DNA from: Ephemerocybe angulata
Taxonomy: Eukaryota > Basidiomycota > Agaricomycetes > Agaricales > Psathyrellaceae
Direction of reading: 5' to 3'
NCBI GenBank assembly: GCA_013368325.1
Contig: JAACJK010000109.1
Coordinates: 1,612,001 to 1,676,000, forward strand
Length of the DNA: 64,000 bases
Position 1 is the stretch's first letter; every line of letters begins with the position of its first letter. Position numbers and translations under genes: made by a program. The notes beneath the pieces are model-generated. The model made no database searches and was not told the DNA's origin. It worked only from the letters and a program-made list of their open reading frames with translations. This document shows positions 1-62,658 of the stretch, piece by piece.

Positions 1-988
1 GCAGCGGAGAGGAGCGTGCTCAAAAGGGTGGACTTCATGGCTGAAGGAGTGGGCGGAGTGAAGTGTCGGATGGATGAAGAAGGTGTGTAGGAACTTGTAC
101 GTAGTGCAGTAGGAATTGCTCGCTGACAGACCAGCTGTAACGAAGCCATCTACCTAGGCTCTATGTTTATATATTCTTCTCCTCGTAGTAAAGCCGGGCT
201 GACGCCGGTCTCCGAGCCCCAGTCGCACTACACAGGCCAAAGTATCCTCAGGAAACGCTCTATAATTACGCTCACTACACCATTGTGGCATTGCCGCTTG
301 ACGGCGGGCGCTTACCGCTTAGCCTAGAAGCGCCACCCCCGCCTGATACGGACCACAGACAACGAACCCATGCCAGTAAGCAATACCACGAATATAGCTC
401 AAGTGCCTCTCTTGAAGGCAAAGCGCAGCAGGAAAAACACACAGAAAATGATCCAGATGTTTTATCGCAGTGACAAGTTTAGACGCGCAGCGCGCCAAGG
501 ATTCAGGTGTCACCGTTCGAACTTCGAAACGTCCAGTTAAATTGGTCCAGAGTGAGTACAGCGTTCGGTGCGCCGGCATCCACTTCCAGTGAGCCGACAC
601 CTTATGAACCTGCGAGGACCCCAAGCTCAAAAGGCTTGATTTGAGAGAGAACGATTTTCTTCTCTCATAGAGGATGGTTCACGAATCTGAGATAAGCTGT
701 AGTAGTATATCAGAGTGATAGACATTGCAATAGTGACTGCATGCGATGCGCACCAGAGCAAGAGAGAGAGAGAGAGAGTGGAGATGGGAGCGTGTGTCGA
801 TGCTAGAAGATGTGGATGAAAAGATGCAATGCCATGCCATGCGTAAGAGAGAAGAAAAAATAAGTACAATTGAAGATTCTCGAAACGATTCGATTTTTGA
901 GATACGAAGTAATCCTGACCACCCCCAAAAAAGCCCAAATTACACCCAACCCCAACCCAAATTACAAGAAACCCCAGCGCCACGCGCC
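1..988. other. Intergenic stretch with a short GA repeat
   Basis: I see no gene that can be supported here. The open frames are short and have no recognisable protein character. A GA dinucleotide run lies at about 762-778. The right end is the 3' flank of the minus-strand dioxygenase gene. Confidence 0.5.
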
Positions 989-3315: not shown

Positions 3316-6300
3316 GGGTGAGAGATGCGAGAAGCAGGGGTGCGATGTCCGGCGTTTTGGGATCTGTGCAGGAACGTATATAATTGAATTTCCCGACCCA
3401 AACTGCACTTGGGAATTTTTTGATCGAGACTGCCCCGATTTGGGCGAGGCTGCTCTGGCCACTTTTCCGCGCTTGCCTGCCTTTTTCTTTCATCCCGCCC
3501 ACCATCGTCGTTTCTGCCGCTAAACTATGCCCAATTCCACGGCATGGATCGCTGAGAATGTGCACTAAAGTGTACTCTAGGGACACTTTCGCTCAGAGGC
3601 TTGGGCCACTATCTTCGGACGAGACCCGGGGGACAGCCAATCACAGCGCGGGATCTCCTGGTTGGGCCTGGGTCTGCCTCCTTCCTCCGCTGGTTCCCCA
3701 CATCGCTCCAACAGCCGCTCTCGCCTCCGCTATCTCCTTCTCCTCGCCTCTCTGCACCCTGCGCCGCCCCCATTCTGGACTCTTTGGGCACGTCCTCCCC
3801 CTCTGGGACGAGGTCCGAAATAGACTCGCCATCCTCGTTTCATTTCATCTAGTCTGAAGACTCTGTCTAGAACGCTTTTTGACGCTGTGTCGTCATTCTT
3901 CTTTGTAGCGTGGCCTATGCTCGAGGCCATGTGCGCGCGTGCTGCACGGACCGGGCGTTCCTGACCCCGGTGTGGCGTCCTCCTCGAAGTATCATTAAAA
4001 TGTTACCAGGCTACTCGTATCCCACTGTTAATTGGTGGTCCCCTTGCTCGTACCCACCCAGCCCCGCATGCCGGCTGCGTATGCACGAGGCTTACGCACA
4101 CCCCGGCTTCGATCTTCGACCCAACTGAACTCAGATCTCAATTGCCACATGCAGTGTACCCCTTCTCAAGTTCTTCCTTCCTGGCGGCTCGGGGTACAAG
4201 ACAGCTTGTATACCCTTTACGGCAGCGAGCATCGAGCGCCATAGGCTGGCCAGCATCTGCAGGCTATAGACTGCGAACTAGCCCGCGGCAGGCGCTCATA
4301 GGCTAGCTCTAGTCCCTCGGCCTACACTCAAATGTCAAAAGCTCTATCATTCTAATCGCCGTATATGTCTAATGTTGCCAGACGGGTATACACCTGAGGG
4401 CATGGCCGTGTTTGTACGTATATCCACTTGCACTCTGTTATATCCTCTGAATCCCCCAGGCCCTTTAACCTGCGTGATGTATCCATTTCCCATCACCTCG
4501 TGCGCAGCGTGCAGATTTACTGGGCGAGACTAGACCGCTCGCCCATCCCGACTCGACCAGTCGACCACGATCTCGAGGAGGTCGTCATGCTGATCGTCAG
4601 ATAGATTGTAGATGCCTCTCGCATTCGTTCCCATTGCTTTACTTATCTATCACCATCCTGATCAGAGTCGCATTTCTCCGGGGAGCCAATACGGTAAGAC
4701 TGGCCTTGAAAGGAGAAAAAGAAGAGAAGAGAAGAGAAGCAGCCTGTGTTTCTTTCAGGATACTTACCTTCCGCGATTAGGTTACTGAAGAGTGGGCCGC
4801 TCCATATATGGGGTTTTTGTTCTATACTGCGCGATGGTGTTCACGCTCTGAGGTCTAAGAGCCCTCTCGAACGCTCAAGACACCTTGAATAACGTTAACA
4901 GCAATCCACAGCCAACCTAAAATTCGGAACCCTTCCCTCCGAGGTATACCCTCCTTCACACATTATCCACCCACCTTCAAACCTCATTACCAACCCCATC
5001 TTCTGTGACATAAATTTTCAAAACATCACAACATCCCAAGTACGCCAGAAAAGCAACCTCAGCTCGTCGACAACAGGACGTGTGCTGCCCCGGCGCTCAT
5101 TGGTTGGGACCTATAGCAACTGTAGCGTACGTGGTAGTCTTCCTCCAGATTCCCATACGCCAATTCCCATGTCCAGCACCCTTCGACTTCTCCGATTCAA
5201 TTAAAGATGCCCTCGCATCCATCCTTCTTCCTTATCTATGCGCAGCTGCCTCTCGTGCCCTCCTTCTAAATTCTGAATCACATACGATGTACCCAAATTT
5301 AACTTTACGAACTTGAACACGGGGTGGGTGAGCATCCGACCGTGTTATCAACAGATATCATTGACACAGCTGTTTAACTTCCGCTGGGCCAACGTCCCGC
5401 TGGCCAGGCAGGTCTTGGCGCCTCTGGACGAATCTCGGGCTGAGGTAGAACACCAAGGGGGCGTCTAGAAGTCCGAAAAACGCTGCGCTTAGATGTTCTA
5501 GTCTCCCTGAAAATCGTGAAGTCTTGCACGCCATACTGATCCAATTTTTTGGCTTTGTGAAAGGGTTCGAACGTCGACCCCGGATCCACGCCGAAATCAG
5601 AGGCGTCTGAAATTCTCTGAATCCGGTACCGTGCACATCCTCTCTCGCCGCTGCTCAAGTACATGGTCGGGTTCTCCCTGCACCTTAAATACACATGACT
5701 GAGAGTACCAAAGATGGAGGCGCGTCCGGAACGACGGGGAGACCGCTTGCAACTTGTTGGATCGATCGCACTTGATGCTTTCCTCCCGGCGCTTAAATGT
5801 AAAGGTTATCTGATAAGAGCATCAATCAGACGCCTGGATGTGCTAAACACATGCTTGTGGTTACATGGTTCAACCCACGACAGTCTGTGGCATGTGGGGA
5901 CAAGAGTCAAGACTATTTATCAGGAGTCTGACTTCCAAGAGGTGTTCTGGCCTTGATAATGACAAATAAGCATATGATTCGCCAAGTCTCAAACGTGCGT
6001 CAGGGATCTTCCTTGAAAGGCAGGGGATGATCCTGATGCGGAGACTTGAGTGAGGTACTGCGACGCTCGTTATGACGTCGCTTTGAGTTTGGTACCACGG
6101 GGGGATTGAAGGACCCGGAAAGTTGCCTTTGACTTCGAACTTCGAAGGGCTTCTGTTGTTTCGTCGCATCTCGGTAGCTTGAAGGTATGTTGGTGAGGAA
6201 GCGTCTATGTAGGTCATGGATGTGGGTTGTATCAATGAAGATTAGATCAACAAACCATTACCCAACACTGGCGAGGTCTATAGATAAGCGCCCAAAGGGA

Positions 6301-7003: not shown

Positions 7004-8356
7004 ATGGCTGACACTGCTTCTATGTTCTCAAATGCAACCAAGGCGTTGTTAGAAGACGCAGGAGTCACGGACGTGCCAAGCCACCACGAGAAGGTGGACA
7101 AGCGGATCGTTGAGCTGGAATGCGAAATCCGGGCGATGAAGAGTTCCCGCAACGCTGTGACGACCACCTGCCGCCTTCCGAACGAAATCCTATCCAGCAT
7201 CTTCCTTTCCCTCTTTCTCATGGACACTACAGACCTAGATAAGCCACTATACACAAGGGTATCTTGGCTTCGGGCTACTTTTGTGTGCCGACACTGGAGA
7301 TTTGTAGCCTTGGGGTGTGCTGCCCTATGGACCACGCCCCCGCTTGATAAGCCTGAGCTAGCCGAGACGATGGTGTCTCGTTCTCAAGGGGCGCCCCTGT
7401 CAATTCATTACAAGGAAAGGGCGTCGCGGTGGGCAGGATCTCAGACTCTCATCCTTGACAGATTTCTGCCTCACCTCGACCGTTTGCGCTCCGTCAAACT
7501 GGAAGGTGTGCTTGGGTACAAAGAGCTGGACTTCCTGAGCCTTTTATCGCACTGGACTGATGCAACACTCCCCGTTCTCGAAAGCCTTCACTTATCGAAC
7601 TCCATCTTATGCGACGACAACCCATTGCCAGTTCGCATTTTGCAAGGCGGCGCTCCACAATTGCGGCACCTCACTCTGTTGCATTGCGGAATCACCTGGG
7701 ACCAAGCGCCGTTATTCCCCAGCATAACCCGCTTATCGTTGGAGGGATCCCCGAAAAACCCATCGAACAACTCGCAACGCCCAACCGTGCCAAAACTGGT
7801 GGATTCTTTGCGACATCTACCACATCTCCAACACTTGGACCTCGTCTACTGTCTCCCACTCGCAACAACCGCGCCTCGTATAGCACCAGCTCGCCTCACC
7901 GCTCTCCGTTCCCTAAAACTTTGGGACACAGCAACGACCTTCGAAAGCTTCTTTCATGTGGTGCAAGTCCCCAAGACCGCACGCATGGGATTCCGCATTA
8001 CAGAGTGTTTTGCACATGACAGGATAGTATTTAAAGAGATGTTCGACGCTATCAAAGCCTCGATCGCCATCGAAGGCGGTGATGTGACTTGCAGCATCCT
8101 AGGCGAGGCTCAACAACTCCATGTTCGGTATGAAACACGCATTGCCAGAACACGCAACTTAGCCCCAGGGAACAGCTTTGATTTCTGGTTTCGGGGCATT
8201 ATGGGGTTACCTGACCTGACCTTCGCCTTCGACGGGTACGAAACCCGCAACATCGCACCCGTCATCTTCGACAGTTTTAAGGTGGCTGCCATGCCTTCTT
8301 TAAAGCTTGGATTCCTCTCTGTGGAGGATGTCTGCTTCTGTGCCTGTAGAAATTGA
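7004..8356 (+). CDS. F-box family protein, C-terminally short paralogue
   Basis: A single uninterrupted exon encodes 450 aa; the ATG sits in a good context (CCACCATGG). An N-terminal helix (KVDKRIVELECEIRAMKSS) precedes the F-box-like segment CRLPNEILSSIFLSL...SWLRATFVCRHWRFVALGCAALW (about residues 50-110), the region that would bind Skp1 in an SCF ubiquitin ligase. The rest is an irregular leucine-rich tail. The four relatives in this window are 553-563 aa; this copy loses similarity after SLKL near residue 435 and ends with an unrelated Cys-containing tail, VEDVCFCACRN. It converges on the next F-box gene with only 31 bp between the stop codons, so the 3' end was probably lost when the pair formed. 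Substrate unknown. Confidence 0.8.
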   Translation: MADTASMFSNATKALLEDAGVTDVPSHHEKVDKRIVELECEIRAMKSSRNAVTTTCRLPNEILSSIFLSLFLMDTTDLDKPLYTRVSWLRATFVCRHWRFVALGCAALWTTPPLDKPELAETMVSRSQGAPLSIHYKERASRWAGSQTLILDRFLPHLDRLRSVKLEGVLGYKELDFLSLLSHWTDATLPVLESLHLSNSILCDDNPLPVRILQGGAPQLRHLTLLHCGITWDQAPLFPSITRLSLEGSPKNPSNNSQRPTVPKLVDSLRHLPHLQHLDLVYCLPLATTAPRIAPARLTALRSLKLWDTATTFESFFHVVQVPKTARMGFRITECFAHDRIVFKEMFDAIKASIAIEGGDVTCSILGEAQQLHVRYETRIARTRNLAPGNSFDFWFRGIMGLPDLTFAFDGYETRNIAPVIFDSFKVAAMPSLKLGFLSVEDVCFCACRN

Positions 8357-8387: not shown

Positions 8388-10079
8388 TTATGGGAAGAAT
8401 GACCAGTTTACCTTCAATCCTACCGTCGCCTGCTTCAGTTCATCGACGTAGTCTTTGTTCAAGTCGGGGCATTTGGCGAAGTAAACATGCATTTTGAAAG
8501 AGTGATCTGTAGAACGTTCTTTCAACACCTGGACAAGAAGACGAAGGGTTTCGGCCTTCTCGTTTCCCAAATCCATTGCCTCGAATACTATTTGAGCCAG
8601 GCCCGGGAAATGTCGCTCCCCATTCTCTGCCCAGTGACCCTGTGAGTCGGTAGGAGGGTCATATCTCAAGATTTCAAGCCACTCCTGCAAAGGGCCTTGC
8701 TCGAGACATAGAGCCTCCAAGTTGGGTAACTGGCCAAGCGTCGTTCTCCATTGGCTCTTGGACATGAGATGGGACGCGTCGACATGAAGGGTGTGCAGGG
8801 AGTCCAGGACAAGATAGTTGAGCAGTCTGAAGACGGGCTGATCTGGGTCATCGTCGGAGTCCAGACTAAAATGAAAGAAATGGTCCGGCAGTGCATCGAA
8901 GTCGGGACGGTGGCCTTGCGACCAAAGGTAGACTCGCGGGCATATGCCAGGAGCCGAACTTCCTCGGACGGACATGTGCCGTATGCTTTCTTGTGAGTTG
9001 TGGAAGGTGCTGCCTCCCTTTGTTGCGAATACCCCAGCGTTGTCGATAATCTCCTCAAGCATGTCGAGATCGTCGATATCCGAGAAGACGAGTCCGAGCT
9101 TCGTTTCTCTGGGAACTCGGAGGAATCGAAAGAAAAAATTCACGTTCCATTGTGGATCGCCAACTGACAGGTATCGAAGTTTGGGGGGATGGAGGTTATT
9201 CGGAGGTAACACCACTGCGTCTTCTCTGCCGGGAAGCATTTGATTCATGACCGTTAGGCCAACTAAAAAGGGAAGTCGTTTGAGACACGAAACAAAGGCG
9301 GCTTGCGTTGGGCGCCGAGGAGGGTTGGCGGGACTGCCTATCATGATAAGGGTGGTGATGGTTGGACCGATTGGTAAATTATCCCAAGTGTTTCCCCACA
9401 TATGCAACCCGAGGTATTCTAGGGAAGGGGTTCCTCCTTGAAGAAAGTCTATTGGAAAGGTGTAGGTTCCTTGGGTTGCGGCATGCGCTGAAGTCTTGGC
9501 CATATGTAACCTTGTGAGGAGAGGGGCTTGACCAGTCCAACTCGACAACACTTCCTGAATCTGAGAGTTTCCTTCGGCGACCTCCTCGAGCACAACGATG
9601 CGCAAACGATTGAGCTGGGACAAGGCTTTATAGAGAGCTCCCGAGGGTTCTTCCGCTTCCCCGTTGAATAGGATTCTGAGTGGAGCGTCCTTAGAGCGGG
9701 CGAGCATCGTTTCAGCCAGCGCAGGCTTAGCGAATATAGGGGTTGTCCAGAGTTCCGCGCAGCTCAAAGCCACATCCCTCCAACGACGGCACACAAAGGT
9801 ACAGATGAGCCAATCCACCCTTTTGTGCACAGGATCCGTTGGGTTCAGGGAGAGGAAGATCTTGGACAGAAGCTCGGCTGGGAGGCGACAGGTAAAGGTG
9901 GCGGCGTTACGGCGCGTCTTCAACGTCCGGATCTCGCATTCCAAGTCGTAGATTCTTGAATCAACTCTGTGGTGGAATTCCTCGATGTCGTCGATTCCGT
10001 CTCCTTCAACTTGTAGCGGGTTGCTCAAGTTGGACGATGAGCAGGATGTTATGGTCGCGCCGTGTTCCAAAGAGTCCAT
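8388..10079 (-). CDS. F-box family protein
   Basis: A single exon encodes 563 aa. It has the same architecture as the other four family members: an N-terminal helix (RIYDLECEIRTLKTRRNA), an F-box-like segment CRLPAELLSKIFLSLNPTD...DWLICTFVCRRWRDVALSCAELW at about residues 55-115, then a long LRR-like region ending in a Phe/Trp-rich tail (KVNWSFFP). By family knowledge it should be a substrate receptor for a Skp1-cullin-F-box ubiquitin ligase. The sequence is clearly more diverged from the 25-, 57- and 62-kb copies than those are from each other, and is closest in arrangement to the convergent 7-kb copy. No introns are needed. Confidence 0.85.
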   Translation of the reverse strand: MDSLEHGATITSCSSSNLSNPLQVEGDGIDDIEEFHHRVDSRIYDLECEIRTLKTRRNAATFTCRLPAELLSKIFLSLNPTDPVHKRVDWLICTFVCRRWRDVALSCAELWTTPIFAKPALAETMLARSKDAPLRILFNGEAEEPSGALYKALSQLNRLRIVVLEEVAEGNSQIQEVLSSWTGQAPLLTRLHMAKTSAHAATQGTYTFPIDFLQGGTPSLEYLGLHMWGNTWDNLPIGPTITTLIMIGSPANPPRRPTQAAFVSCLKRLPFLVGLTVMNQMLPGREDAVVLPPNNLHPPKLRYLSVGDPQWNVNFFFRFLRVPRETKLGLVFSDIDDLDMLEEIIDNAGVFATKGGSTFHNSQESIRHMSVRGSSAPGICPRVYLWSQGHRPDFDALPDHFFHFSLDSDDDPDQPVFRLLNYLVLDSLHTLHVDASHLMSKSQWRTTLGQLPNLEALCLEQGPLQEWLEILRYDPPTDSQGHWAENGERHFPGLAQIVFEAMDLGNEKAETLRLLVQVLKERSTDHSFKMHVYFAKCPDLNKDYVDELKQATVGLKVNWSFFP

Positions 10080-17612: not shown

Positions 17613-18534
17613 TTACATACATGAAACGTCTCCGTTCGACATTTCACAAGCCCTCGACACTACATTTCGCAGCATCAGCGCTCGCTCCTCGGGTGAATGT
17701 TTGCAGCAAAATGAACCCACCAATATTGCCGTCCTCGTTCCGCATGACAAGGTCAAAGGTAGAGTACTGACTGCGCTCAACTGAACGTCTGTCGTGAGTA
17801 CGACTGCTTGGTGGACTGTGAACAGCTAATTTACTCACCAAGATTCATTCTCTCGTCGCGTTCTACGATTTCGAAGTCCCGTCTGTTCATAATGGTCTTC
17901 TCTTCCGACAAATCCCTCTTGTGCTTCTTGTTATGTTTCTTCTTCTGCTTCTTATGAGGAGCCTTTTTAGGTGCTTCCTTATGCTTGCCGGCCTCTCTCT
18001 CCTTCTTGTCTTTGTTGGACTTGATGACCGCCATAGCAGCGTTTTTGGCAAGGCTCACGGCTCCGCCAAGAGGGCTGCGACCAAGGCTTTCTCCGACGAG
18101 CTTGAGCGCCATCTTACCATTGGCACCTGTCTGTCGGACGGCGTCCTGGAAGCTTTTGTTCCAAGGTACACCGGTGCAATACCTCTGTGCAGCCATTGCC
18201 ATGCATCCACCAGCGGTACCGCATGCCAGGACACTGGTGCAGCTACGAGCATCTGTTTCTTCGTTGAGTAGTAATCATCGTTGGGTTGATTGAAAGCGGC
18301 GTACCAAGGTCTTCGTACGTGTTCACAAAGTTTCGGTCGACTACACCAATGAACTCTTAGCATGCAATGGGAGCTATGAGAAGTAGAAAGGGGTATACCA
18401 ATCTCTCCATTTAGTGCTCGTTCGACGACGTGGAAATGCCTGACGTTGAGAGCACCTTCCGCAGTGGGGATGTAGGCATGCACTTGGGAGGCCAAGGCAG
18501 CAGCAAGAACGGCGGACACAACAGTAGACTTCAT
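17613..18534 (-). CDS. Secreted Cys-core/Lys-rich protein family, member A
   Basis: Five exons (18534-18399, 18340-18305, 18252-17839, 17780-17721, 17659-17613) encode 230 aa. A signal peptide (MKSTVVSAVLAAALASQVHA) is followed by YIPTAEGALNVRHFHVVER, then the Cys core CTSVLACGTAGGCMAMAAQR plus YCTGVPW, then FQDAVRQTGANGKMALKLVG and ESLGRSPLGGAVSLAKNAAM. A Lys/His-rich tail, the shortest of the family, ends at HKRDL, a possible Kex2 site. The acidic C-terminus contains NRRDFEIVERD and ends SNGDVSCM. Exon 2 is 21 nt shorter than in B and D, removing seven residues. I do not recognise this family. It is probably secreted, since it has a clear signal peptide and no membrane segment. Same strand as B and C. 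Confidence 0.8.
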
Positions 18535-18611
18535 GTTGGATGAGTGATAAGAGAGACGGAGTAAAGGAAAGGGGGGAGGTATGCTTGGATGGAGGCTCGC
18601 TCGATGACAGG

Positions 18612-18655
18612 ACCAGCTGTGAGAGTTAGATCTCCACCATCGACCCCTCTTTATA
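18612..18655 (-). promoter_or_regulatory. Core promoter of secreted gene A: TATA box and CAGCTG element
   Basis: In gene orientation TATAAAG (18655-18649) is followed 27 bp later by CACAGCTGGT (18621-18612), which ends 77 bp before the ATG. The same pair at the same spacing precedes all four family genes. Confidence 0.65.
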
Positions 18656-20016
18656 CCCTTCTTCCTGTGGCTCGTCTGAGCCGGGGTTATCCCTGAGCCG
18701 GAGTCCTGGTAGCAATGGCCCCCCAGTGCTCGCCTCGTTCTTGTGGCCGGTGAGCATCTCGGGTCGCTGTTATTTGCAGCAAGTACCGAGATTTTCTCAG
18801 CGGCAGGTAGGAATATGCGAGATGTGTATTGCCGGGAGCATTCTATTGCCGTAAGATGAACGACCATTGGCATATTGTGATTCGTGAGCGCCAAAGCGCA
18901 GCTCACGATACATGCGGGTCGACCGTCCTGAGCTGGATTTCGGGGCTAGTGTTGCCGTCGAACTGAACTTCAATTCGACAAACTGGCGATGAAAGACAAT
19001 TCGTTGACAGTTCAGTTTGCGAACTGTCCAAACGATCAGAGTTCGCGAACCCGGCGGTCGGCACTCAAGAAATCAGTGATGAGTTATATACTATACCGAG
19101 AGCATTGTCCGGGGCGCACTGAGGAGGGGCTTTCGAGTATGCTTCTGGTACCTTGAGTTACTGTAGCAGCTATGTGGTATGGGAAGTGTACTTTGAAGTG
19201 GTTCATATTAGATTGAGCACGATGATCTCAACAAGATGGACGCTTCTAAGTTCTCACTACTAGCCTGGACATGTTCAGTTAGCAGGTGCAGGGCTCCAAG
19301 ATCATGCCGATCCTGATCATTTGTTGGTGAGAAGTGCCGGATGCTCGCTTAACCGCTTAACCGAGAGGGGAGAGGGCTGTGGAGGTCAGCATTTCATGAA
19401 TGCTGGCCCAATTGAAGTCTGTCTGAGTCTCGTGTCAGCGTCGTCGTATGTGGAGATTATTGAAGGCGTGGAATAGGAAAATTCCTTGTCCGTGCTTTGT
19501 TTCTGACTTCGAAAGGCCGATTCAGGGTATAGGCGATAGACATAGTCCTGCTCATCACACAACGCCTTCGAATGGTCGCCGCTAGACTCGAGGCCCGACG
19601 CGTCTCCTCAGCCGCGCGTCGCGTGCACGCGTCGGCTACGGCTACACCCTTTTAGGAATATCGGCCGAGCATTATTAAGCGCCGAGGCGCCAAATCCGTC
19701 TGACCAATCCTCACTCGGTTTTCTCTGAGTACGGTACTGCTTTATCTCTCTCTCGAAGGTTCGGCTTCCGTCATTGCTGCGCACCTCATTTGTGTGAGCC
19801 TTGGCCTTCGAAGATCAGGTCGCAATTGCATCAAGCCCTGAATATTTCCCAGCGGTTGGATCGATCGCATGTATGCGTCATGGTGCTATCACTGACATAC
19901 CGAACTTCAAATCATCGGCCATCGGGGCTCCTCTCCGGAATGAGCACGAAGAAATATGGCATTCAGCAATACTGGTTTATCATATACAATATGAAACCAA
20001 GAGCTACGATTTCCCT
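18656..20016. other. Intergenic between secreted genes A and B
   Basis: The part from about 19280 to 20016 resembles, in inverted orientation, the 3' flank of secreted gene D (about 60060-60320), for example the paired tract with GTTAAGCGGTTAAGCG. No coding feature is supported. Confidence 0.5.
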
Positions 20017-21496
20017 CTACATGCAGGACACCTCTCCGTTAAAGCTTTGGCAGTCCCGCGATACTGTAAACCGATTGATGGTCAGGCACCCTGAACTAGG
20101 GAATATACTGGAGGTTACTCACCAACTTCGCCATTCTCGTCCCTGCTGATAAGGCCGAAGACGGAGTACTCGCCGCGTTGAACTGGAAGTGTCCTTCGGT
20201 GAGTAATCGTAGCGGCATGGGAGTGAAAGTATGGAAGAACGTACCCAGGTTCAAATCCCCATCACGCTCGACGAATTCGAAGTCCCGCCTGCCGACGATA
20301 ACCTCGTCTTCAGCGCCCAAGTCACGCTTGGTCTTCTTGGCAGCAGGCGCGGCTTTGGGCGCCGGCTTCGGTGCAGCAGCCTTCTTGGGAGCGGGGGCAG
20401 CCTTCTTCGGCGCAGCAGCCTTAGGCGCAGCCGCCCTTCTTGGCGCAGGAGCGGCCTTCTTTGCAGGGGCAGCCTTTCTGGGGGCAGGAGCAGACCTCTT
20501 CGGCGCAGCCTTTCCAGGAGTCGCCTTCCTCTGAGGGGTGACCTTATGAGTCTTCAGCTGCTTCCCTGGCGCAGACTTCCTTCCGCCGCCAGGAGCCTTC
20601 TTGACTGGGCCCTTCCTCAGGGTGGTAGCGGGACCCTTCTTGACTGGGCCCTTCTTCAGGGTGGTAGCGGGACCTTTCTTGGGGGTCGATTTCCTCGCCG
20701 GGGACTTTTTGGCGGGGCCCTTCTTGGCAGGACCCTTCTTGGGAGTCGACTTCCTAGCTGGGGACTTCTTTGCTGGACCTTTCTTGGGAGTCGATTTCTT
20801 CGCTGGTGTCTTCTTAGCAGGACCCTTCTTGGGCGCTTTCGTCTTGGGTGCCTTCTTCGCTGGGGCCTTCTTCGCTGGGGCCTTCTTAGGAGGGTCAGGC
20901 TTTTTCTTCTTCGCTTCCTCAGCCTTCTTCCTCTCCTCCTTCTTCGCGGCGATCTCCTTGTTGGCTTTGATCACCTCCATCGCCGTGTTTTTGGCTAAGC
21001 TGATGGCCCCGCCGACGGGACTGCGCCCGAGACTCTCGCCGACGAGTTTGAGGGCCATACGTCCATTGGCACCTGTTTGCTCGACGGCGTCGTTGAAGCT
21101 CTTCTGCCAAGGGACACCATCGCAGTACCTTTGGGGGGCCATCGCCATGCAGCCACCGGCAGTACCGCAGGCCATGACGCTGGTGCACCCACGAGTCTCT
21201 GTTGGTCGTGTAAGCGAAGATTATTTGTCGATCATCAGTGGAAGACGCACCGAGGTCTTCAGAGTCACGCGGAGCGACGTTGTAGTTGTTCACGAAAGTT
21301 CGGTCAACTACATGAGATACGGTAAGTAAAGGAAGACGATGATGACCGGAATCTTCATACCGATCTCCCCATCCATGTCGCGTTCGACGATGTGGAAGTG
21401 TCTGACATCAAAAGCACCCTCTTCAGTGGGGATGTACGCATACGCCCGGGAGACCAAGGCGGCAGCGACGAAGCTCGACAGAACGATGGACTTCAT
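20017..21496 (-). CDS. Secreted Cys-core/Lys-rich protein family, member B (longest tail)
   Basis: Five exons (21496-21361, 21307-21251, 21198-20245, 20182-20123, 20063-20017) encode 417 aa. Signal peptide MKSIVLSSFVAAALVSRAYA, then YIPTEEGAFDVRHFHIVERD, then the Cys core (VMACGTAGGCMAMAPQRYCD) and the conserved GANGRMALKLVGESLGRSPV. The large third exon carries about 180 residues of Lys/Ala/Pro/Ser/Thr repeats built on KKGPAKKSPARKSTP and KKAAAPKPA units, resembling the C-terminal tail of histone H1 in composition. The tail stops at KTKRDLG, a dibasic site, followed by the acidic VGRRDFEFVERDGDLNL and QRGEYSVFGLISRDENGEV, ending REC-like RDCQSFNGEVSCM. Nearly the same protein as D apart from tail length. 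Function unknown; binding of polyanions outside the cell is an inference from charge only. Confidence 0.85.
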
Positions 21497-21574
21497 ATTG
21501 GAAATGGGTTAAATGGAAAGGATACGCGAGAGATGGAGGTGAGTATGTGCTTGGTTAGGCTCGCTCGTGACAGT

Positions 21575-21617
21575 ACCAGCTGTGGGGAATCTACTTTGGC
21601 AGACGAGCGCTTTTATA
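21575..21617 (-). promoter_or_regulatory. Core promoter of secreted gene B: TATA box and CAGCTG element
   Basis: In gene orientation TATAAAA (21617-21611) precedes CACAGCTGGT (21584-21575) by 26 bp; the element ends 78 bp before the ATG. The position fits a transcription start element. Confidence 0.65.
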
Positions 21618-22845
21618 GCTTTCTTGAATGTAGAGCGTTGTTCGTGACATTGACATGCAAAGATCACGTCTCCTTGCTGTACTCTTCGCCGGATATGCGC
21701 TATCCTTCGGATACTGTAAAGAGTAAGATAACCGTAATGTAATGGTATGATTAAAACGCCAATCCCATGTCACTCACCGTTCGCATCTGTGATGAGGATC
21801 CCAGTCGAGCGAGATGATTACCATTTAATTCTTTGTGGGGCGCTGAAACCGCCGATATCTGTGTCGTGTTGTGATCATAGAATTCACCAGGTCGGCGAGG
21901 ACTTTATATATAGAGTTTACTTGTCTTCAGCACCCCGAAGGTCATTGAAATCCGAGCCTGGAAACAAATCGGTCACAGCATCAGTAGTCAGGCTATGCGA
22001 TCGCAGCAGAAACCGAAGTCCTGCCAGCGCTTCCACCACGAGGTACCCAATGATGCACCAAGGTCCCATATACATGCCTGACCGCACGCCTTAGGGTATG
22101 AAGCTCGGCATCGGCTGATGATTTAAGGGCTATGCGCGCATTTGCGGCATGGAAGCCATGGCACCACGACCTGACCTCGACAAATGCAGACTCTGTTCTA
22201 GTGGTAGGCACTCTGGTAAAGAGACGGTAAAGAACATCGTTAACAATCACAGACTCCATCATAGCGCTGAAAGATGACTACCGTGACGTACCATTGACAG
22301 CCTCATCCCCATGCCCATGAATGTAACGCACAATCTCCCTGTTCTGAATACTGCAACTTTCACAGCATCACTCAGTGGCCGATGCAGCCTCCCGTAGACC
22401 TCAGGAAATCCGCCGTTTCTGCATCCATGTCCAACCTGCTACGGCGCTGCGACCATGGTTTGCGAGTCGTGGCGACAAACCAGTACACAACCTGGCCCGC
22501 TGAGCATAGATTACTGGCCTTTGACAGCTCTTTTTCTGGCCTCTTGATAGAGCTCTCAGTACATGAGAAGTTCCTGGAGATTCTGATCGAAGTAGGCATT
22601 GAATTGCTCGATTATGCATCGAGCTAAGATGAGAGGTGAGGAAAGAAGCGGTAATGTGGCGGTGCTTGTGAGCCCATATTGATGCGGCGTTTCAAAATCT
22701 TCGCAGTTTGCCGCACAGTTGCCAACTTTAATTCCTTTGCCAGTCTTCTTTCGTTACTCCAACTCGACTCGTCAAGTTGACAAGTCCGTACAGGAAGCGC
22801 AGCACAGGGAAGTAGTAAAATATGTCGAGAATATGCCGACCGCGT

Positions 22846-23841
22846 CTAACTGCAGGAAACCGCTCCGTTGAATGCCCCGCATTCCCTGTACACTGAGGTC
22901 ATGCGAATATTGGCCTTCAGGAACACTCAAAGAAATTAACAAACACTACTCACCAACTTCACCGTCCTCGTTCCTGCTGACAAGTTCGAAGTGAGAGAAA
23001 TCTCCTCTTTGAACTGCCGAGCTCCAGTGAGTTAGATTGCATTAAACGGGGCAGGCTGTATACTCACCAAATTCCATATTCTCATCACGCTCAACGAACT
23101 CAAAGTCGCGCCTATTGACAATACTAATATCATCTTCCAAGTACTCCCGCTTGCCCTTCTTCGACTTGGTTGCCTTCGCCTTCTTCTCCTTCTTGGGCTT
23201 AGGCGCCTTCGCCTTCTTCTCTTTCTTGGGCTTCGGCGCTTTCTTAGACTTGTTCTCCGCTCCCGCCTTCTTGCCCTCGACGATAGCGGCCTTGACGATA
23301 TTCGCGGCGCCGCCGAACGGGCTGCGTCCAAGACTCTCCCCGACGAGCTTGAGCGCCGTCTTAGCGTTCCTGCCCGTCTGCCGTGCGGCATCCTGGAAGC
23401 TCTTCTTCCAGGGAACGCCCGGGCAGGAGCGGATTGGAGACATTGCCATGCATCCGAAGGGAGTGCCGCACGACGGGATGGCGGTGCAACCACGGCGGGC
23501 CTCTGTGGGACCAGCCACCACCGTGAGCGAGTGAATCTTATGAATGAAGCAAAATGGGGACGGCGTACCAAGGTCTTCGAACTCTCCGTCGCGTGGTTCG
23601 AGGTCGAAGATGTTTAGGAACGTGCGCTCGACTGCGTTGAGGAAGGAACGATGTTAGCGACAGTCCTGGTGAGGATTCGGATCGGCGTAGTGGTCGTACT
23701 GATCTCTCCATCCTCCAAGTCCCGCTCGGCGATATGGAAGTGCCTAACGTTGAAAGCGCCCTCGTCGGCCGGGAAGTACGCATACGCCCTGGAGGCCAGG
23801 GCCGCAGCGACGAAGCTCGACATAAAGATGGACCAGTTCAT
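22846..23841 (-). CDS. Secreted Cys-core/Lys-rich protein family, member C (most diverged)
   Basis: Five exons (23841-23700, 23631-23569, 23502-23068, 23013-22954, 22892-22846) encode 248 aa. The start MNWSIFMSSFVAAALASRAY gives a signal peptide, followed by FPADEGAFNVRHFHIAERD. The Cys core is CTAIPSCGTPFGCMAMSPIR and SCPGVPWKKSFQDAARQTG, with all four cysteines kept, then ALKLVGESLGRSPFGGAANI. The tail consists of three imperfect KKAKAPKPKKEK-type repeats and ends at KGKREYLEDD. The acidic end has NRRDFEFVERDENMEF and VQRGDFSHFELVSRNEDGEV, closing with YRECGAFNGAVSCS. Divergence from A, B and D with an unchanged exon plan suggests selection for the layout. It lies divergent from the F-box gene at 24970. 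Confidence 0.8.
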
Positions 23842-24969: not shown

Positions 24970-26652
24970 ATGGAGCCTAACCTTGCCCACCCGGATCCCT
25001 CCCATTTTTCAACTGAAACAAAAGATTTAATGGATGTTGCTCAAGTCTCTGACGTTCCAAAGTACCACGGCATGTTGGCACGTCGCATTCACCAACTGGA
25101 ATGCGAGCTCTGGGCGTTGAGAAGCTGCCACAACGCGGTGACTCTGACCTGCCGCCTTCCACCCGAGATCCTGGCCAGGATCTTTATTGACCTCGCATCG
25201 ATGGGGCTAAGCGCATGGTACACTCTGGCGGCCAACAAAAAACCTCGAAAAGTATCGGTGTCCTGGCTCCGAGTCACTTTCGTGTGCCGGCACTGGAGAT
25301 CGGTGGCGCTGCAATCCCCTTCCCTTTGGTCAAATCTCGTCTTTTCGAACGCAAACCTCGCGGAGGCGATGTTGACACGTTCGAAGGGCGCCCCGCTGAC
25401 AATTTGGTACAATGGTATGAAAGACAAACCGTCTTCGGTTTTGACCACTGCGCTGTCGAGCGTCGATCGGTTGCGTTCTGTCAAGTTCAGCTTGGACAAG
25501 GACTCTTACATTCAACCTGCACTGTTGGCATGGGCTCAGAAAACAGGCCCGACCCTCACGAGCTTCGAAATGTCTTACGACATTGGGAACAGCGGCTCCC
25601 TGCCCAAAGCATTTCTGCGTGCCAGCTCCCATTCCCTTCGGATACTCTCCCTGATCAGGTGCGGCTACACCTGGGGGGACCTTCCGATCGGTCCCAGGAT
25701 TACCCATCTCTCACTTGACAGCGGCCATATGTTCAGCGACACACACCGTCCGACACATTCGATGTTTGCGTATTCATTGCAGCAGATGCCCCACCTGCAG
25801 TGCTTCAACCTGATCGGGTTTCTCCCCTCCGAAGCCGACACTCAGTACCCCGAACCCATTCACATCCCATCCTTGCGCAGCCTTTCACTTGAAGATGATG
25901 CCCGAATAATTGAGGTGTCCCTTCGCATCTTACGGTTCCCCAGAGAAGCGAGGATTGATCTCAACCCGTGGTATTTCGACGATACGAACAATATCGCAGA
26001 GAGAGTCGGCCAGACTCTGCGTGGCCTGCGTGGCTTCGTACCCGCGAACCGAGCGTTCCGAAAACTCTCCTTCCATCTTGAATCGCAGATTTTCCGGGAT
26101 GCTGCCCACTTTGAATTCTTTTTCGAAGAGGGCGTTGACGAAAGCCTTGCAGGACCGTGCCTCACCCTCTCATTTAATGGCCACTTGGTGGACTTTCTCC
26201 CTGACTATGTTTCCCTTATCTACAAATACCTCGATATCCCGGATTCGATGACTTTGCATCTCAAGGGGTACCTTCGCATGTCGATCCACACCTTACGGAC
26301 AACATTAGGACGAATACCGCAGCTGAACACCGTTACGTTCGAAGAAGTCCCTTTCAGACACGTCCCCAAACTCTTGACAAGGCCCGTTCATTCGGATGGT
26401 ACGGATGGCACGTATGCTTCCTCGGACGAGGGTGGATGTTTCCCGGGCCTTACGATCATCAACTTTGTTGCCCTTGATATGGGGGCCTTGCACGGGCAGG
26501 ACGAAGTCATCGTTTCCATGCTCGATGGTCACGCAGTGCACGAAGTCAACTTCCGGAACTGTACGAATATCCAGAAGAAATGCTTCGAGATGATGAAGGA
26601 AACGCTTCCCTCTGTGCTCTTTTCCTGCGATACTGTGATCAGTGAGACCTGA
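24970..26652 (+). CDS. F-box family protein
   Basis: A single exon encodes 560 aa starting MEPNLAHPDPSHFSTETKDL. The N-terminal helix (RRIHQLECELWALRSCHNA) leads into the F-box-like CRLPPEILARIFIDLASMGL and SVSWLRVTFVCRHWRSVALQ at about residues 55-120; the long C-terminal part shows irregular LRR-like strands. It is very close to the copies at 55818-57488 and 60897-62558, including its 5' flank. By family it would present substrates to an SCF ubiquitin ligase. The first ATG conserved among the three close copies was used as the start. It is divergent from secreted gene C, as the 57-kb copy is from secreted gene D. Confidence 0.85.
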   Translation: MEPNLAHPDPSHFSTETKDLMDVAQVSDVPKYHGMLARRIHQLECELWALRSCHNAVTLTCRLPPEILARIFIDLASMGLSAWYTLAANKKPRKVSVSWLRVTFVCRHWRSVALQSPSLWSNLVFSNANLAEAMLTRSKGAPLTIWYNGMKDKPSSVLTTALSSVDRLRSVKFSLDKDSYIQPALLAWAQKTGPTLTSFEMSYDIGNSGSLPKAFLRASSHSLRILSLIRCGYTWGDLPIGPRITHLSLDSGHMFSDTHRPTHSMFAYSLQQMPHLQCFNLIGFLPSEADTQYPEPIHIPSLRSLSLEDDARIIEVSLRILRFPREARIDLNPWYFDDTNNIAERVGQTLRGLRGFVPANRAFRKLSFHLESQIFRDAAHFEFFFEEGVDESLAGPCLTLSFNGHLVDFLPDYVSLIYKYLDIPDSMTLHLKGYLRMSIHTLRTTLGRIPQLNTVTFEEVPFRHVPKLLTRPVHSDGTDGTYASSDEGGCFPGLTIINFVALDMGALHGQDEVIVSMLDGHAVHEVNFRNCTNIQKKCFEMMKETLPSVLFSCDTVISET

Positions 26653-27173: not shown

Positions 27174-29028
27174 AGTTGGCCGTTTTCCGCCCCTCTTTTC
27201 AAAAAGGGAAAACGTCCGAAAAGCGACCGGCTCGCGTTGGTCAGCACACAAACACCGAGAAATGAGCCAGCGCGACTTCGAACTTGGCGATAATTGCCAA
27301 ATAATTGCCACTCAGTCATATTTACGGTACAATAGAGCTGTAAGTACTAAGTAGTGAAGTATAAAGGTACATTCAGGTAGAGATATGTTGAGAAGGGATA
27401 AGGGCCTGCAATCGTGCAATAATGTCAGCATTTCGGTTGCCCGCTGAAACACCATATCTCGCACACAACTTATTCAGTTGTGGACGCTTCAACTTGTGCA
27501 AGGCATCGTGGTCCCGAAGGTCGAAAGTGGCTGGGTCAAATACGACGTCAGCTGTAGTGCTTGAAGGGGGCTGATTCACGGTGTTGATAGGCTGAGCCGG
27601 CATTGATTGCAATGGTGCAGACGTAACTTGAAGTGCGTCTGGCCGAGCTTTCTTTCCAGAGCGCTCTCCACCACCGTATGGATCTGTGTGAGTGGTTTTC
27701 CTTTTACCCTTGACTTGTCCCATCGTCATCCCGGTTTCGGACCAGGTATGCTGGTTTGGTGCGATGCGCACCGGCCTTGGTAAGATATCATCCTCGGCAA
27801 GTGATGCCACCAACATGCCATCGACTGTTTCCTTCAACGATTTCAGCTCGGCAGGATCAAGCGGCAGCTTCTGCGTATCTTTGAGGCGGCAAACGAGACT
27901 AGAAAGAGACGAGATCGTCTCTGCAATGAGGCGAGAATTTGTAGTATCGGAATCCAAGTCAGAAGGGGATTCTTTGGGGCTCGGCTGAGTAATTGGACCA
28001 TTAACCTCAAAGGTATCGGCTGGTGATATGTCGAGAGTTGAGCAGGGAACTGGCTGACAGAGTTCCGGGAAGTGAAGTTGAACAGCATATATATGCTTAC
28101 ACAGGAGGACCTTTGGAAAGGACGGACAGGTGCAGTCGTACGCATCGATATCGACAGTGTAAGTCTTGTTGCGGTTTGTTTGTGACTTGACCGTGAACAT
28201 TGAAGCTTCGACGTCGGATTGGTGAATGTCCGCAGTGGTAATCAGTTTTGCGAGTGATTCTATGCGTAGTCGCTCTTGAGCTTCGAGATCAGGGCCTTCA
28301 AATCCATGTTCTTGAGCTCGATGGCGATGGATAAAGTGTGGTATCGTTTGTTTGATGAGGATGTACACCAGGTGGTCGAGGCGCCTGTTGCGCTTGCCCT
28401 GCATGAACTTTCCCTTCAATAAATGATGCCATGCCTCCACGAGCATGTTTGTATCACAGTCCTGAAAAATAGTGCGCTCTGTTCGGTAGACAGCTGACCA
28501 CATCTTCGTTATTGGCATCCAGTTTTTCTCCAGATACTCAATGACACTTGCTGGGGCAATAGCTTTGATTGACGCCCAACGCTCCGAGAACTCGCTCGCA
28601 TCAGTGATGCGTACCCATGTCTTCATTAGACGCCAGACCTCGGGGTATGCAGTGATGCTGATGTGCTGCTGCCAAGCGTGAAGGACGTGCCACCAGCAAA
28701 GGAGAATCTCGGCGCTTGGATGTACTCGGCCAATTGAATTGATCTGAGCATAATCCTTATCCGTCATGAAATATTCCGGGTTTATGTCTGGAAAGCGCGA
28801 GTGTATAGACTCAAGGAAGAGTGAGACCGTCTCCTCTGTTCCATCAGAGGATATCATCCATGCGCATGGCATTCCTGTATAGAGCCAGAATGTAAGCTGT
28901 TATTTCTGGACTTCAGTATTTACGAGTCCGTTTACGGATTCGTTCTGTGGTGTTGATCCCGGTAAGACGTTTGTGATCCAATTCCGTGATGCGATCAAAC
29001 AGGACTCACCATTCGGGCACTGGGCAGT

Positions 29029-29581: not shown

Positions 29582-29791
29582 TGGAGTCGTCCAGACCTCC
29601 AGGCGCGTGTCTAGGTGGGCAGGCTCGGAACCGCGTCGAGCAGGTGGAGGGGGGAAGCAAGGCTTGTTGTCTATTCTCGGCGCGCTGGCGTCGTCTACAT
29701 CGGTAAGTGATCCCATCAGCATCTAATCTAATCTCAGTCCGTGTCTAGGTACGAGGAGGAGAGGTGGCGAGTGCCCACAGGCACTGCCACA
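29582..29791 (-). repeat. LTR, 3' copy in element orientation
   Basis: 210 bp, TG...CA, same sequence as 31489-31698. Confidence 0.8.
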
Positions 29792-29807
29792 TGTGCCCAC
29801 CCCCCTA
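29792..29807 (-). other. Polypurine tract of the LTR element
   Basis: On the minus strand a run AGGGGGGTGGG lies directly upstream of the 3' LTR, where plus-strand DNA synthesis would be primed. The stop codon of the gag-like gene overlaps it. Confidence 0.55.
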
Positions 29808-31151
29808 GTAGCAACGCCCTCGTTGCGTCCGCGAACTCGTTCTCCACTCAGGGACTGTCGGAAGTTTCTCGCTCGCAACAGGGCATCTGTGCATGCACGA
29901 GCAAACGAGCATCGGGAAGTGATGAGGGCGCCTAGCGTGTTGGATCCGGTCGTACTCGCGAGCACGACGGTAGTTTCTCTGGGTACGCGAAGAGCGGTGG
30001 CGGTGGGTACGTGGGTCGCGTCCGGTTCTCTGGTGGATGCTCTTCCAAGGATCGGCGCATGGGCTACGGAGGTCCGAGAAATCTCGAACGAAAGACGGCG
30101 TCGGTTGCACAGAGGGCGTGAGTTGTGGATCTGGCTTGGTGTCGGTGTCAAATTCAGTCTCGTCGGCCCAATCGAGGGAAGTGTCGTTTCCAGCTGGACG
30201 TGGTGTTGCCTGGGTATCTGGAAGCATCCGGGTGGGTAGATGGGGCGGCGGAAGGGGTGAATCTAATCTCTGGCTCGTTGGCGCGGGAACTCGGTGGGTG
30301 TCCGTAGCTGTAGTGGGTAAGTCGGCGATGACATCGTCAGTCTGAGTGGTTGCCTCTGAAGAAAGGGGTACTGCTTTCGCTGTTGCAGCTGGGTGGACTT
30401 CCGGCGCGAAATCCGTCTGAGTTCCCATCTCCGAAGAGGTATGTAGCACGAGATTTGGCGAGGACAGATCTGAAGCTGGGTCTGGTGCTGCGACGAGACG
30501 AGCACGTTCCTCGAGAATGCCAGAATGCTTTCCTCTAAGGAAAGACATCTCCTCGAACATCTGGAGTCGGCGCTCATGTTTGTTGACTTCCCTGAGTCTC
30601 CCTTTGACTTCCTGGATGACGACACTGAGCTCTGGCGGGATCTCGTTCGGGAAGTGCTCGGTGAGCGAGGTGCAGAGCTCGGTGATGGAGGGACATTGGT
30701 CAACGAATGGCGAGGGGAGCGATGGAAGGCCGGGTGAGGCCGGGTTTGGTGTCCAGAGCGCTCGTTCAGCTGCCACTCCCATCGCGTATGCGGCGTCGTG
30801 CGTCGAGTCGAAGCGGCGCTCGCAGCTTTCCATGAACGTCGTAAGGGCTTGAACCATCTCCTGGAATCTCGCCGCCATTCTCCGCTCTCCGATCTCGAGG
30901 CCGAGTCGAACGCCGTGCTTCAGTGCTTCGGCAGCCAGCGGATCGTCGAGCGAAAGGCCCGCGCTATATTCCTTGAGCGAGGCGATCAGGCCAGCTGCGG
31001 GGTCGAGAGGTGCTTCCGGAGCGCTTTGAACAGATGGGGGATCGGAGCCGTCAGGTGGTTGAACGTCGGTGTGCTCAGTGTCGGTCGTCGTCTGGGCTTT
31101 CGAGTTCGCCCTGTTTGCTCGTTGACGAGCGCGCTTGCCAGGTGCGGGCAT
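29805..31151 (-). CDS. Gag-like structural protein of the LTR element
   Basis: One uninterrupted frame encodes 448 aa and fills most of the interior of the element. The N-terminus is basic (MPAPGKRARQRANRANSKAQ). A helical, capsid-like region follows (about residues 75-230), including EALKHGVRLGLEIGERRMAA and LRGKHSGILEERARL. A Ser/Thr/Pro-rich middle and a basic, Arg-rich tail follow; no CCHC knuckle is visible, though a Cys/His cluster (VCSCMHRCPV) lies near the end. No significant family name can be given from the sequence alone; assignment as Gag rests on position between LTRs, size and layout. The stop codon lies in the polypurine tract. Confidence 0.6.
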   Translation of the reverse strand: MPAPGKRARQRANRANSKAQTTTDTEHTDVQPPDGSDPPSVQSAPEAPLDPAAGLIASLKEYSAGLSLDDPLAAEALKHGVRLGLEIGERRMAARFQEMVQALTTFMESCERRFDSTHDAAYAMGVAAERALWTPNPASPGLPSLPSPFVDQCPSITELCTSLTEHFPNEIPPELSVVIQEVKGRLREVNKHERRLQMFEEMSFLRGKHSGILEERARLVAAPDPASDLSSPNLVLHTSSEMGTQTDFAPEVHPAATAKAVPLSSEATTQTDDVIADLPTTATDTHRVPAPTSQRLDSPLPPPHLPTRMLPDTQATPRPAGNDTSLDWADETEFDTDTKPDPQLTPSVQPTPSFVRDFSDLRSPCADPWKSIHQRTGRDPRTHRHRSSRTQRNYRRAREYDRIQHARRPHHFPMLVCSCMHRCPVASEKLPTVPEWRTSSRTQRGRCY

Positions 31152-31488: not shown

Positions 31489-31698
31489 TGGAGTCGTCCA
31501 GACCTCCAGGCGCGTGTCTAGGTGGGCAGGCTCGGAACCGCGTCGAGCAGGTGGAGGGGGGAAGCAAGGCTTGTTGTCTATTCTCGGCGCGCTGGCGTCG
31601 TCTACATCGGTAAGTGATCCCATCAGCATCTAATCTAATCTCAGTCCGTGTCTAGGTACGAGGAGGAGAGGTGGCGAGTGCCCACAGGCACTGCCACA
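31489..31698 (-). repeat. LTR, 5' copy in element orientation
   Basis: 210 bp, TG...CA, same sequence as 29582-29791. A short open frame (MLMGSLTDVDDASAPRIDNK) appears in both copies but is a by-product of the repeat. Confidence 0.8.
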
Positions 31699-58852: not shown

Positions 58853-60060
58853 ATGAAGTCCATCGTCCTGTCGAGCTTCGTCGCTGCCGCCTTGGTCTCC
58901 CGGGCGTATGCGTACATCCCCGCTGAGGAGGGTGCTTTTGATGTTAGACACTTCCACATCGTCGAACGCGACATGGATGGAGAGATTGGTAAGAATTCTG
59001 GCTATCATCGACTTCCTTCACTCATTGTACCTCATGTAGTGGACCGAACTTTTGTGAACAACTACAACGTCGCCCCGCGTGACTCTGAAGACCTTGGTAC
59101 TTCTACTGATAATAATCCACATATAAACTTGGCTTACACAACCAACAGTGCCTCGTAAATGCACCAGCGTCCTGGCATGCGGTACTGCCGGTGGCTGCAT
59201 GGCAATGGCTGCACAGAGGTACTGCGACGGTGTACCTTGGCAAAAAAGCTTCCAGGACGCTGTCCGACAGACAGGCGCCAATGGCAAGATGGCGCTCAAG
59301 CTCGTCGGCGAGAGTCTCGGACGCAGCCCCGTCGGCGGGGCCATCAGCTTGGCCAAGAACGCGGCGATGGAGGTGGTAAAAGCCAACAAGGAGAAGAAGG
59401 AGAGAGAGAAGGCTGCGGGAGCGAAGAAGAAAAAGTCTGCTCCTGCTAAGAAGGCCCCAGCGAAGAAAGCGCCCAAGAAGGCACCCAAGACGAAAGCGCC
59501 CAAGAAGGGTCCCGCTAAGAAGTCCCCGGCGAGGAAGTCGACTCCCAAGAAGGGTCCTGCCAAGAAGGCCCCTGCCAAAAAGTCCCCGGCGAGGAAATCG
59601 ACCCCCAAGAAAGGTCCCGCGAAGACTCATAAGGTCACCCCTCAGAGGAAGGCGAGTCCCGGAAAGGCTGCGCCGAAGAGGTCCGCTCCTGCGCCAAGAA
59701 AGGCTGCTGCACCGAAGAAGGCTGCCCCCGCTTCCAAGAAGACCAAGCGTGACTTGGGCGCTGAAGACGACTCGGTTATCGTCAGCAGGCGGGACTTCGA
59801 ATTCGTTGAGCGTGATGGGGATTTGAACCTGGGTAAGTTCTTTTACACTTTCTCTCCCATGCGATTACTCACCGAGGGCACTTCCAGTTCAACGCGGCGA
59901 GTACTCCGTCTTCGGCCTTATCAGCAGGGACGAGAATGGCGAAGTTGGTGAGTAACCTCCCGTATATCCCGTAGTTCAGGGTGCCTAACCGCCAATCCTT
60001 GTGTGGTTTACAGTATCGCGGGAGTGCCAAAGTTTTAACGGAGAGGTGTCCTGCATGTAG
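58853..60060 (+). CDS. Secreted Cys-core/Lys-rich protein family, member D
   Basis: Five exons (58853-58988, 59040-59096, 59149-59832, 59888-59947, 60014-60060) encode 327 aa. Signal peptide MKSIVLSSFVAAALVSRAYA, then YIPAEEGAFDVRHFHIVERD and VDRTFVNNYNVAPRDSEDL. The core has CTSVLACGTAGGCMAMAAQR, YCDGVPWQKSFQDAVRQTGA and LKLVGESLGRSPVGGAISLA. About 110 residues of Lys/Ala/Pro repeats (KKGPAKKSPARKSTP type) follow and end at KTKRDLG. The C-terminal piece contains VSRRDFEFVERDGDLNL, QRGEYSVFGLISRDENGEV and ends SRECQSFNGEVSCM. Six cysteines in all apart from the signal. All splice phases agree and all four intron positions match members A-C. Divergent from one F-box gene and convergent with the next. 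Function unknown. Confidence 0.85.
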
Positions 60061-62558: not shown

Positions 62559-62658
62559 GAGATGCTCAGCCTGTTGACCACGGTCAGCGATAGATAGTTC
62601 CATTCTTCGATCACAAACCTCGCTTCTAGGTACTTTTTGTTCTTTGGTGGTACTCAAG

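Follow-up and report, generated by a model that had tools for sequence, protein, structure and literature searches.

A Five-Exon Family of Predicted Secreted Proteins in Ephemerocybe angulata with Homologous Segments on Either Side of a Four-Cysteine Head

A 64,000-nucleotide stretch of the 58.7-Mb genome of the ink-cap mushroom Ephemerocybe angulata (Psathyrellaceae; C146:1612001-1676000, referred to throughout as the window) contains four complete genes, members A to D, of a five-exon family of predicted secreted proteins that the evidence supports as new. The acidic C-terminal part of these proteins is, by alignment, homologous to their N-terminal part, and the two related segments, here called the N and C brackets, enclose a four-cysteine head and a Lys-rich tail. 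With moderate confidence, we favor a secreted pro-protein architecture in which Kex2-type cutting would release the middle, a reading built on motifs and alignments.

RESULTS

Five-exon genes at one locus

Gene models were obtained by GT-AG enumeration, with the best-scoring model kept and then re-spliced, and with exon length ranges set around the values given in an earlier sequence-only reading of this DNA; because the ranges were taken from the claim itself, agreement in exon length is partly by construction. The members in the window, and the start of a fifth that crosses its left edge, are as follows.

Member A, 17613..18534, minus strand: exons 18534-18399, 18340-18305, 18252-17839, 17780-17721 and 17659-17613; GT-AG model with phase-1 introns.
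Member B, 20017..21496, minus strand: exons 21496-21361, 21307-21251, 21198-20245, 20182-20123 and 20063-20017; GT-AG model.
Member C, 22846..23841, minus strand: exons 23841-23700, 23631-23569, 23502-23068, 23013-22954 and 22892-22846; GT-AG model.
Member D, 58853..60060, plus strand: exons 58853-58988, 59040-59096, 59149-59832, 59888-59947 and 60014-60060; GT-AG model, identical to public record P0001.
Member E, start only, 1..38, minus strand: other exons left of the window (C146:1611059-1612038; exons 139/57/423/63/56); equal to public record P0006.

Exon lengths are 136/36/414/60/47 nt in A, 136/57/954/60/47 in B, 142/63/435/60/47 in C, and 136/57/684/60/47 in D, with all four introns of A to D in phase 1 and the three inner exons divisible by 3. 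The fixed five-exon plan with shared phases that had been proposed for A to D is thus borne out by the best-scoring models, the lengths falling inside the stated ranges. The model of D matches P0001 (D9611_002800, E. angulata) letter for letter, and P0006 corresponds to E, a fifth copy just left of the window; the identity of these two public records to the models supports D and E independently. From a second E. angulata assembly, P0002 has the same splice pattern as A, and the B-like P0003 matches B at both ends and is out of register from the late tail to the start of exon 4. Where lower-ranked gene models depart from the best one, they do so at the donor of exon 2 or exon 3 or in exons 4 and 5; for D and E, the best model agrees with the public records. 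The four-cysteine core, the KLVGESLGRSP stretch, the Lys-rich tail, and the two C-terminal cysteines from which the family had been recognized are all found in A to D, and a signal-peptide-like start is present in the members, as judged by eye.

Homology of the two brackets

The N bracket begins in the last part of exon 1 and runs up to the first cysteine of the core; the C bracket begins in the last part of exon 3 and runs up to the first of the C-terminal cysteines. At about 41 residues each, the two align end to end. Their positions in member D are given below.

D N bracket, 58943..59159, plus strand: end of exon 1, exon 2, and start of exon 3, ending LVPR-K before the first cysteine (left end approximate; from alignment with the C bracket and the LxxR motif).
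D C bracket with its CxxxNGxVSCM-type end, 59788..60060, plus strand: end of exon 3, exon 4, and start of exon 5 (left end approximate; from the bracket alignment).

Over 17 pairs, the mean bracket alignment score is 58.4 versus 7.9 in shuffles; letters were shuffled per sequence, so the corresponding z of 29 is too generous. A stricter shuffle of 14 pairs, with one seed for all rows, gives 62.5 versus 8.9 +/- 4.1 (z of 13.2), the observed score being reached in 0 of 1000 shuffles, and hhalign in global mode compares the N and C brackets of the 17 pairs with a probability of 93 and an E value of 4.9e-8. The 17 sequences are A to E (D and E as P0001 and P0006) together with 12 database proteins; P0003, P0004, P0012 (a near-copy of P0009), P0017, and P0020-P0025 were left out, and the 14-pair set is the same set minus P0002, P0007, and P0016. 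The gene structures show the same correspondence: in D, introns 1 and 3 fall in the same aligned column and in the same phase, as do introns 2 and 4, and in other members the second bracket intron is off by about one residue, owing to gaps.

Each bracket is itself composed of two modules of about 20 residues, which in the N bracket are the end of exon 1 and the whole of exon 2. All six pairwise comparisons among the four modules give scores that 0 to 4 of 500 shuffles reach, with modules 1 and 3 and modules 2 and 4 the closest (0/500 each) and modules 2 and 3 the weakest (4/500). We conclude from these alignments that the acidic C-terminal bracket is homologous to the N-terminal one, and a simple history would be that one module doubled and the pair then doubled, with the core between the two pairs. 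The acidic C-terminus with two cysteines, which had been listed among the marks of the family, is present in A to D and is not a separate feature, being a second copy of the N-terminal part, and it is because of this duplication that the exon sizes and phases are so regular.

Predicted Kex2-type sites

The middle of the protein is set off by candidate protease sites on both sides. Of the 26 proteins that have the region, 25 carry an LxxR motif at most 9 residues ahead of the first core cysteine; the lone exception, P0016, has an apparent unspliced intron there. Where the basic tail gives way to the acidic linker, 33 of 36 rows have KR with D, E, or S as the next residue, and those that lack it are the out-of-register P0003 and two fragments, P0032 and P0033; a stricter pattern gives 25/28, the larger count coming from a looser pattern and more sequences. 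The acidic linker in turn ends in RR or KR in 16/17 full-length members. In PMC8528282, Kex2 is described as requiring Arg at P1, a preference at P2 for Lys, then Arg, Thr, Pro, Glu, and Ile, and a preference at P4 for Leu or another aliphatic residue. On the strength of these motifs, cutting at Lys-Arg is likely, and cutting at LxxR is favored with less assurance. The predicted sites and product are listed here.

D Lys-Arg at the basic-to-acidic switch, 59745..59750, plus strand: predicted Kex2 site.
D head and tail, 59160..59744, plus strand: predicted released product, between the LxxR and KR sites.
A Lys-Arg at the basic-to-acidic switch, 17915..17920, minus strand.
B Lys-Arg at the basic-to-acidic switch, 20324..20329, minus strand.
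C Lys-Arg at the basic-to-acidic switch, 23147..23152, minus strand.

The genome has matches to PF01483 (proprotein-convertase) over the Pfam cut-off at four places, one with an internal stop, among which Kex2 is not singled out. In a relative, Coprinopsis cinerea, knocking out kex genes affects growth and fruiting, according to PMC9769878.

Relatives in other Agaricales

A profile search with the E. angulata members returns 24 proteins at E <= 1; a second search, for which the alignment was widened, returns 31 at E <= 10, the weakest at 3.8e-7. P0005 (E 0.85, Lys-rich end only) was left out as unrelated, and the union of both searches is 32 family proteins, of which 15 are assigned to five Agaricales species: E. 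angulata (8), Coprinellus micaceus (3), C. aureogranulatus (1), Coprinopsis sp. MPI-PUGE-AT-0042 (2), and Crepidotus variabilis (1). These species are mostly decomposers. Homologues in other species, such as P0009 of Coprinellus micaceus at E 3.1e-90, exclude chance as the source of the family. No row among the family matches carries the name Coprinopsis cinerea, in a search that proceeds by shared words and scores part of the candidates. The family alignments hold 23 of the 24 proteins of the first search (without P0023) and 30 of the 32 in the union (without P0032 and P0033).

The sequence-only reading had recognized no described family and had suggested a profile search with the cysteine core; consistent with it, Pfam finds no match over cut-off in the three members submitted, A, C, and D (the best score is 13.9 bits versus cut-offs of 22.3-27), and the search does find relatives, the species-assigned records, D and E among them, all being titled "hypothetical protein." A search of the literature found no paper attributable to the family, with subscription journals mostly outside its coverage. 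The paralogues with their five-exon plan therefore stand as a predicted secreted family, although not as one of this locus alone, its reach extending to 32 database proteins.

Nine proteins (P0022, P0023, P0024, P0025, P0028, P0029, P0030, P0031, and P0033) leave the family alignment at the exon 3/4 junction, and each continues with glycine, as is expected from read-through of a phase-1 intron starting with GT. P0016 (C. aureogranulatus) departs in the same way at the exon 2/3 junction. These departures, seen in predicted proteins, suggest that the introns are common to relatives beyond E. angulata.

Further copies and the inverted duplicate

In two whole-genome searches, E lies at the window's left edge, and two more copies, F and G, lie rightward on the same contig; elsewhere in the genome there are only weak matches, two on C114 (E 0.5) and one on C115 (E 0.66). 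A search with the brackets alone gives 10 rows, all from the contig stretch of the cluster (best E 0.001), at a sensitivity that is low for 20-residue exons. Exons 1 to 3 of F run from C146:1722846 on and exon 4/5-like pieces lie about 7 kb beyond (C146:1730595-1730768), and it looks as if an insertion of about 7 kb has interrupted the gene shortly before exon 3 ends; P0017, from the second E. angulata assembly, is a relative that is not split.

Member F pieces, L010:6846-7494 and L011:5095-5268 (C146:1722846-1730768).
Copy G, L011, about 5620-6000: signal-peptide-like start, N bracket, and acidic part, without the cysteine core by eye.

The distant inverted duplicate said to hold D proves to be real: 19896-20416 matches 60181-59667 at 88.1% identity and 20667-22719 matches 59620-57666 at 82.8%. 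D lies inside this inverted duplicate of the B region and adjoins copies of an F-box gene. Five open reading frames (ORFs) with an F-box-like domain are present in the window, at 24970-26652 (plus strand), 55818-57488 (minus), 60897-62657 (minus), 7004-8356 (plus), and 8388-10079 (minus); in the first three, which adjoin the B and D copies, the DNA is 80-84% alike. Synonymous divergence (dS) between D and B is 0.06 and 0.05 at the two ends and 0.61 in the head, and the head distance between D and A is 0.67. This mosaic similarity suggests gene conversion between the copies at 17613-23841 and 58853-60060.

Composition, constraint, and predicted structure

The head contains four cysteines and Gly-rich stretches, and the Lys-rich tail that follows is of very variable length, from 6 to 213 residues, the longest being the Lys/Ala/Pro tail of B (213 aa). 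A split into these parts was possible for 21 of 28 proteins; in these, the head carries a charge of +2 to +8, the tail +5 to +69, and the full brackets -1 to -14. Since four of these rows have tails of just 6 to 9 residues, the function cannot lie in the tail alone. For both brackets and the head of A to E, the ratio of nonsynonymous to synonymous divergence (dN/dS) is 0.07-0.58 (23 of 30 values computable, many with dS >1 and hence uncertain; the signal-peptide region, at 0 to 1.11, is outside the 30 values), indicating that constraint on the brackets is similar to that on the head and that they are not free linkers.

AlphaFold modeling of P0018 with 23 sequences gives a mean predicted local distance difference test score (pLDDT) of 63.4 and a predicted template modeling score (pTM) of 0.55. 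Strands are predicted in both brackets, with block mean pLDDT values of 73-82 for the N bracket and 53-81 for the C bracket, and the core is modeled with three helices, two of them at pLDDT 35-41.

DISCUSSION

A maturation route and its alternatives

In the route that we propose, the signal-peptide-like start would direct the precursor into secretion, and late in the secretory pathway a Kex2-like protease would cut behind both LxxR and Lys-Arg. As a paired pro-domain, the brackets would help the head to fold and/or hold it; once released, the cationic four-cysteine head with its Lys-rich tail would act outside the hypha, where microbial surfaces, wall polymers, or extracellular nucleic acid are candidate polyanion targets. 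The maturation route carries more weight for us than the activity does. That the brackets pair with each other is a tentative proposal; that the released product binds polyanions or microbes is put forward more hesitantly still, being weakened by two simple tests, of charge shielding and of amphipathicity. The fullest version, in which the core lies inside a duplicated exon cassette and the homologous half-domains form one pseudo-symmetric pro-domain that would hold the cationic head and be removed on both sides by Kex2, we judge rather unlikely to be right as a whole. We know of no described family with such twin homologous flanking pro-domains.

Several observations count against release of the middle in this manner. 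A dibasic pair lies at most 6 residues before the first cysteine in only 6/17 members, the remainder having LxxR alone or, in one member, neither. KR or RR pairs also turn up elsewhere, in the N bracket at a distance from the core (7/17), in the C bracket (2/17), and in the tail (5/17), and the brackets may therefore themselves be cut in some species; the pairs inside brackets slightly lowered our confidence in bracket pairing, which was already somewhat doubtful, and they make the pseudo-symmetric pro-domain less probable and a precursor like the KEX2-processed repeat proteins (KEPs) of agaricomycetes more so. The charge of the brackets does not track that of the tail, which weakens the idea that they shield it. 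The head helices are not clearly amphipathic, shuffles reaching the moment at frequencies of 0.017-0.146 with 4/10 tests under 0.05, and amphipathic antimicrobial helices are weakened accordingly as a candidate. Modeled alone, the head reaches a pLDDT of only 52, and fold searches with the full-length model show no convincing resemblance to any solved fold.

One alternative is an extracellular protein that stays uncut: its brackets and head would form a single folded unit, with the Lys-rich insert as a flexible loop by which it would adhere, or be cross-linked, to wall or substrate. Such a protein would account for brackets that are constrained like the head, for AlphaFold strands in both brackets and head, and for the range of tail lengths, which a low-complexity loop can tolerate; it fits poorly with KR at one place, the tail end, in nearly all rows. 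Chance KR is possible in a Lys-rich tail, as the extra pairs there illustrate, but a loop leaves the fixed spot beside the acidic linker unexplained, and we regard an uncut protein as unlikely. Less likely again is a KEP-like Kex2-processed precursor, with the acidic bracket peptides active and the Lys-rich middle a spacer or second product. The four related modules and the dibasic pairs within some brackets speak for it, and KEPs exist in Coprinopsis cinerea (PMC9769878), but the in-bracket pairs are not conserved in place and are absent from the brackets of A, B, and D, and the head is also constrained, which would be needless for a spacer. A histone H1-like DNA-binding protein, possibly nuclear, is very improbable: NCBIfam hist_H1_lk_Burk matches 6/23 and Pfam HC2 2/23 members (E <= 0.01, in the low-complexity tail), and the database entry of P0003 lists PF07382 (HC2), but the match is compositional, tails of a mere 6 to 9 residues occur in four of the 21 split rows, and the signal-peptide-like start and cysteines point outwards. 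Kex2-type release of the middle from a secreted pro-protein thus remains the reading that we prefer.

Other elements in the window

A 210-base direct repeat, 100% identical in its two copies (29582-29791 and 31489-31698, about 1.9 kb apart), surrounds an ORF at 29805-31151 without a Pfam match, and the two repeats may mark the termini of a young mobile element. Two further ORFs are as follows.

37615-41586, minus strand: ORF resembling a long interspersed nuclear element, with endonuclease and reverse-transcriptase domains.
27373-28872, minus strand: ORF with a SWIM zinc finger, a DUF5575_C match, and a match to MULE (Mutator-like element) transposase slightly below cut-off.

Significance and comparison with known systems

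The analysis gathers orphan secreted proteins of ink-caps and their relatives into one family, and its intron positions show how such a protein can arise from duplicated exons of about 20 residues. The predicted protease sites make the maturation route testable. Small secreted proteins are estimated to form 40-60% of fungal secretomes and are mostly orphans (PMC7105643), and it is for this reason that a family with a testable route is useful, if not startling.

Among known systems, the histone H1-like tails (NF038053, PF07382) resemble the tail in Lys/Ala/Pro composition and differ in that the likeness is one of composition only, with no sign of a common head, brackets, or cysteines. The Kex2-processed pro-domain (K2PP) proteins of fungi, described for plant-pathogen effectors in PMC8528282, are closer, being secreted and having an N-terminal pro-domain whose end is a Kex2-type motif (Leu at P4, Arg at P1). 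The present family likewise combines a signal peptide (by eye) with an N-terminal pro-domain ending in LxxR in all but one of the proteins with that region, but differs in having a second pro-domain at the C-terminus, homologous to the first, and in that cutting is here predicted. With the KEPs, as presented in PMC9769878, the family shares a signal-peptide-like start, dibasic sites, and internal repeats. KEPs are defined there by at least one partial sequence between dibasic sites that is similar to at least two others; the family has its four related modules, with dibasic pairs inside the repeats in some members only. The clearest difference is one of arrangement, since the repeats of KEPs are released peptide cores flanked by KEX2 sites, whereas here the repeats themselves flank a core that is not repeated.

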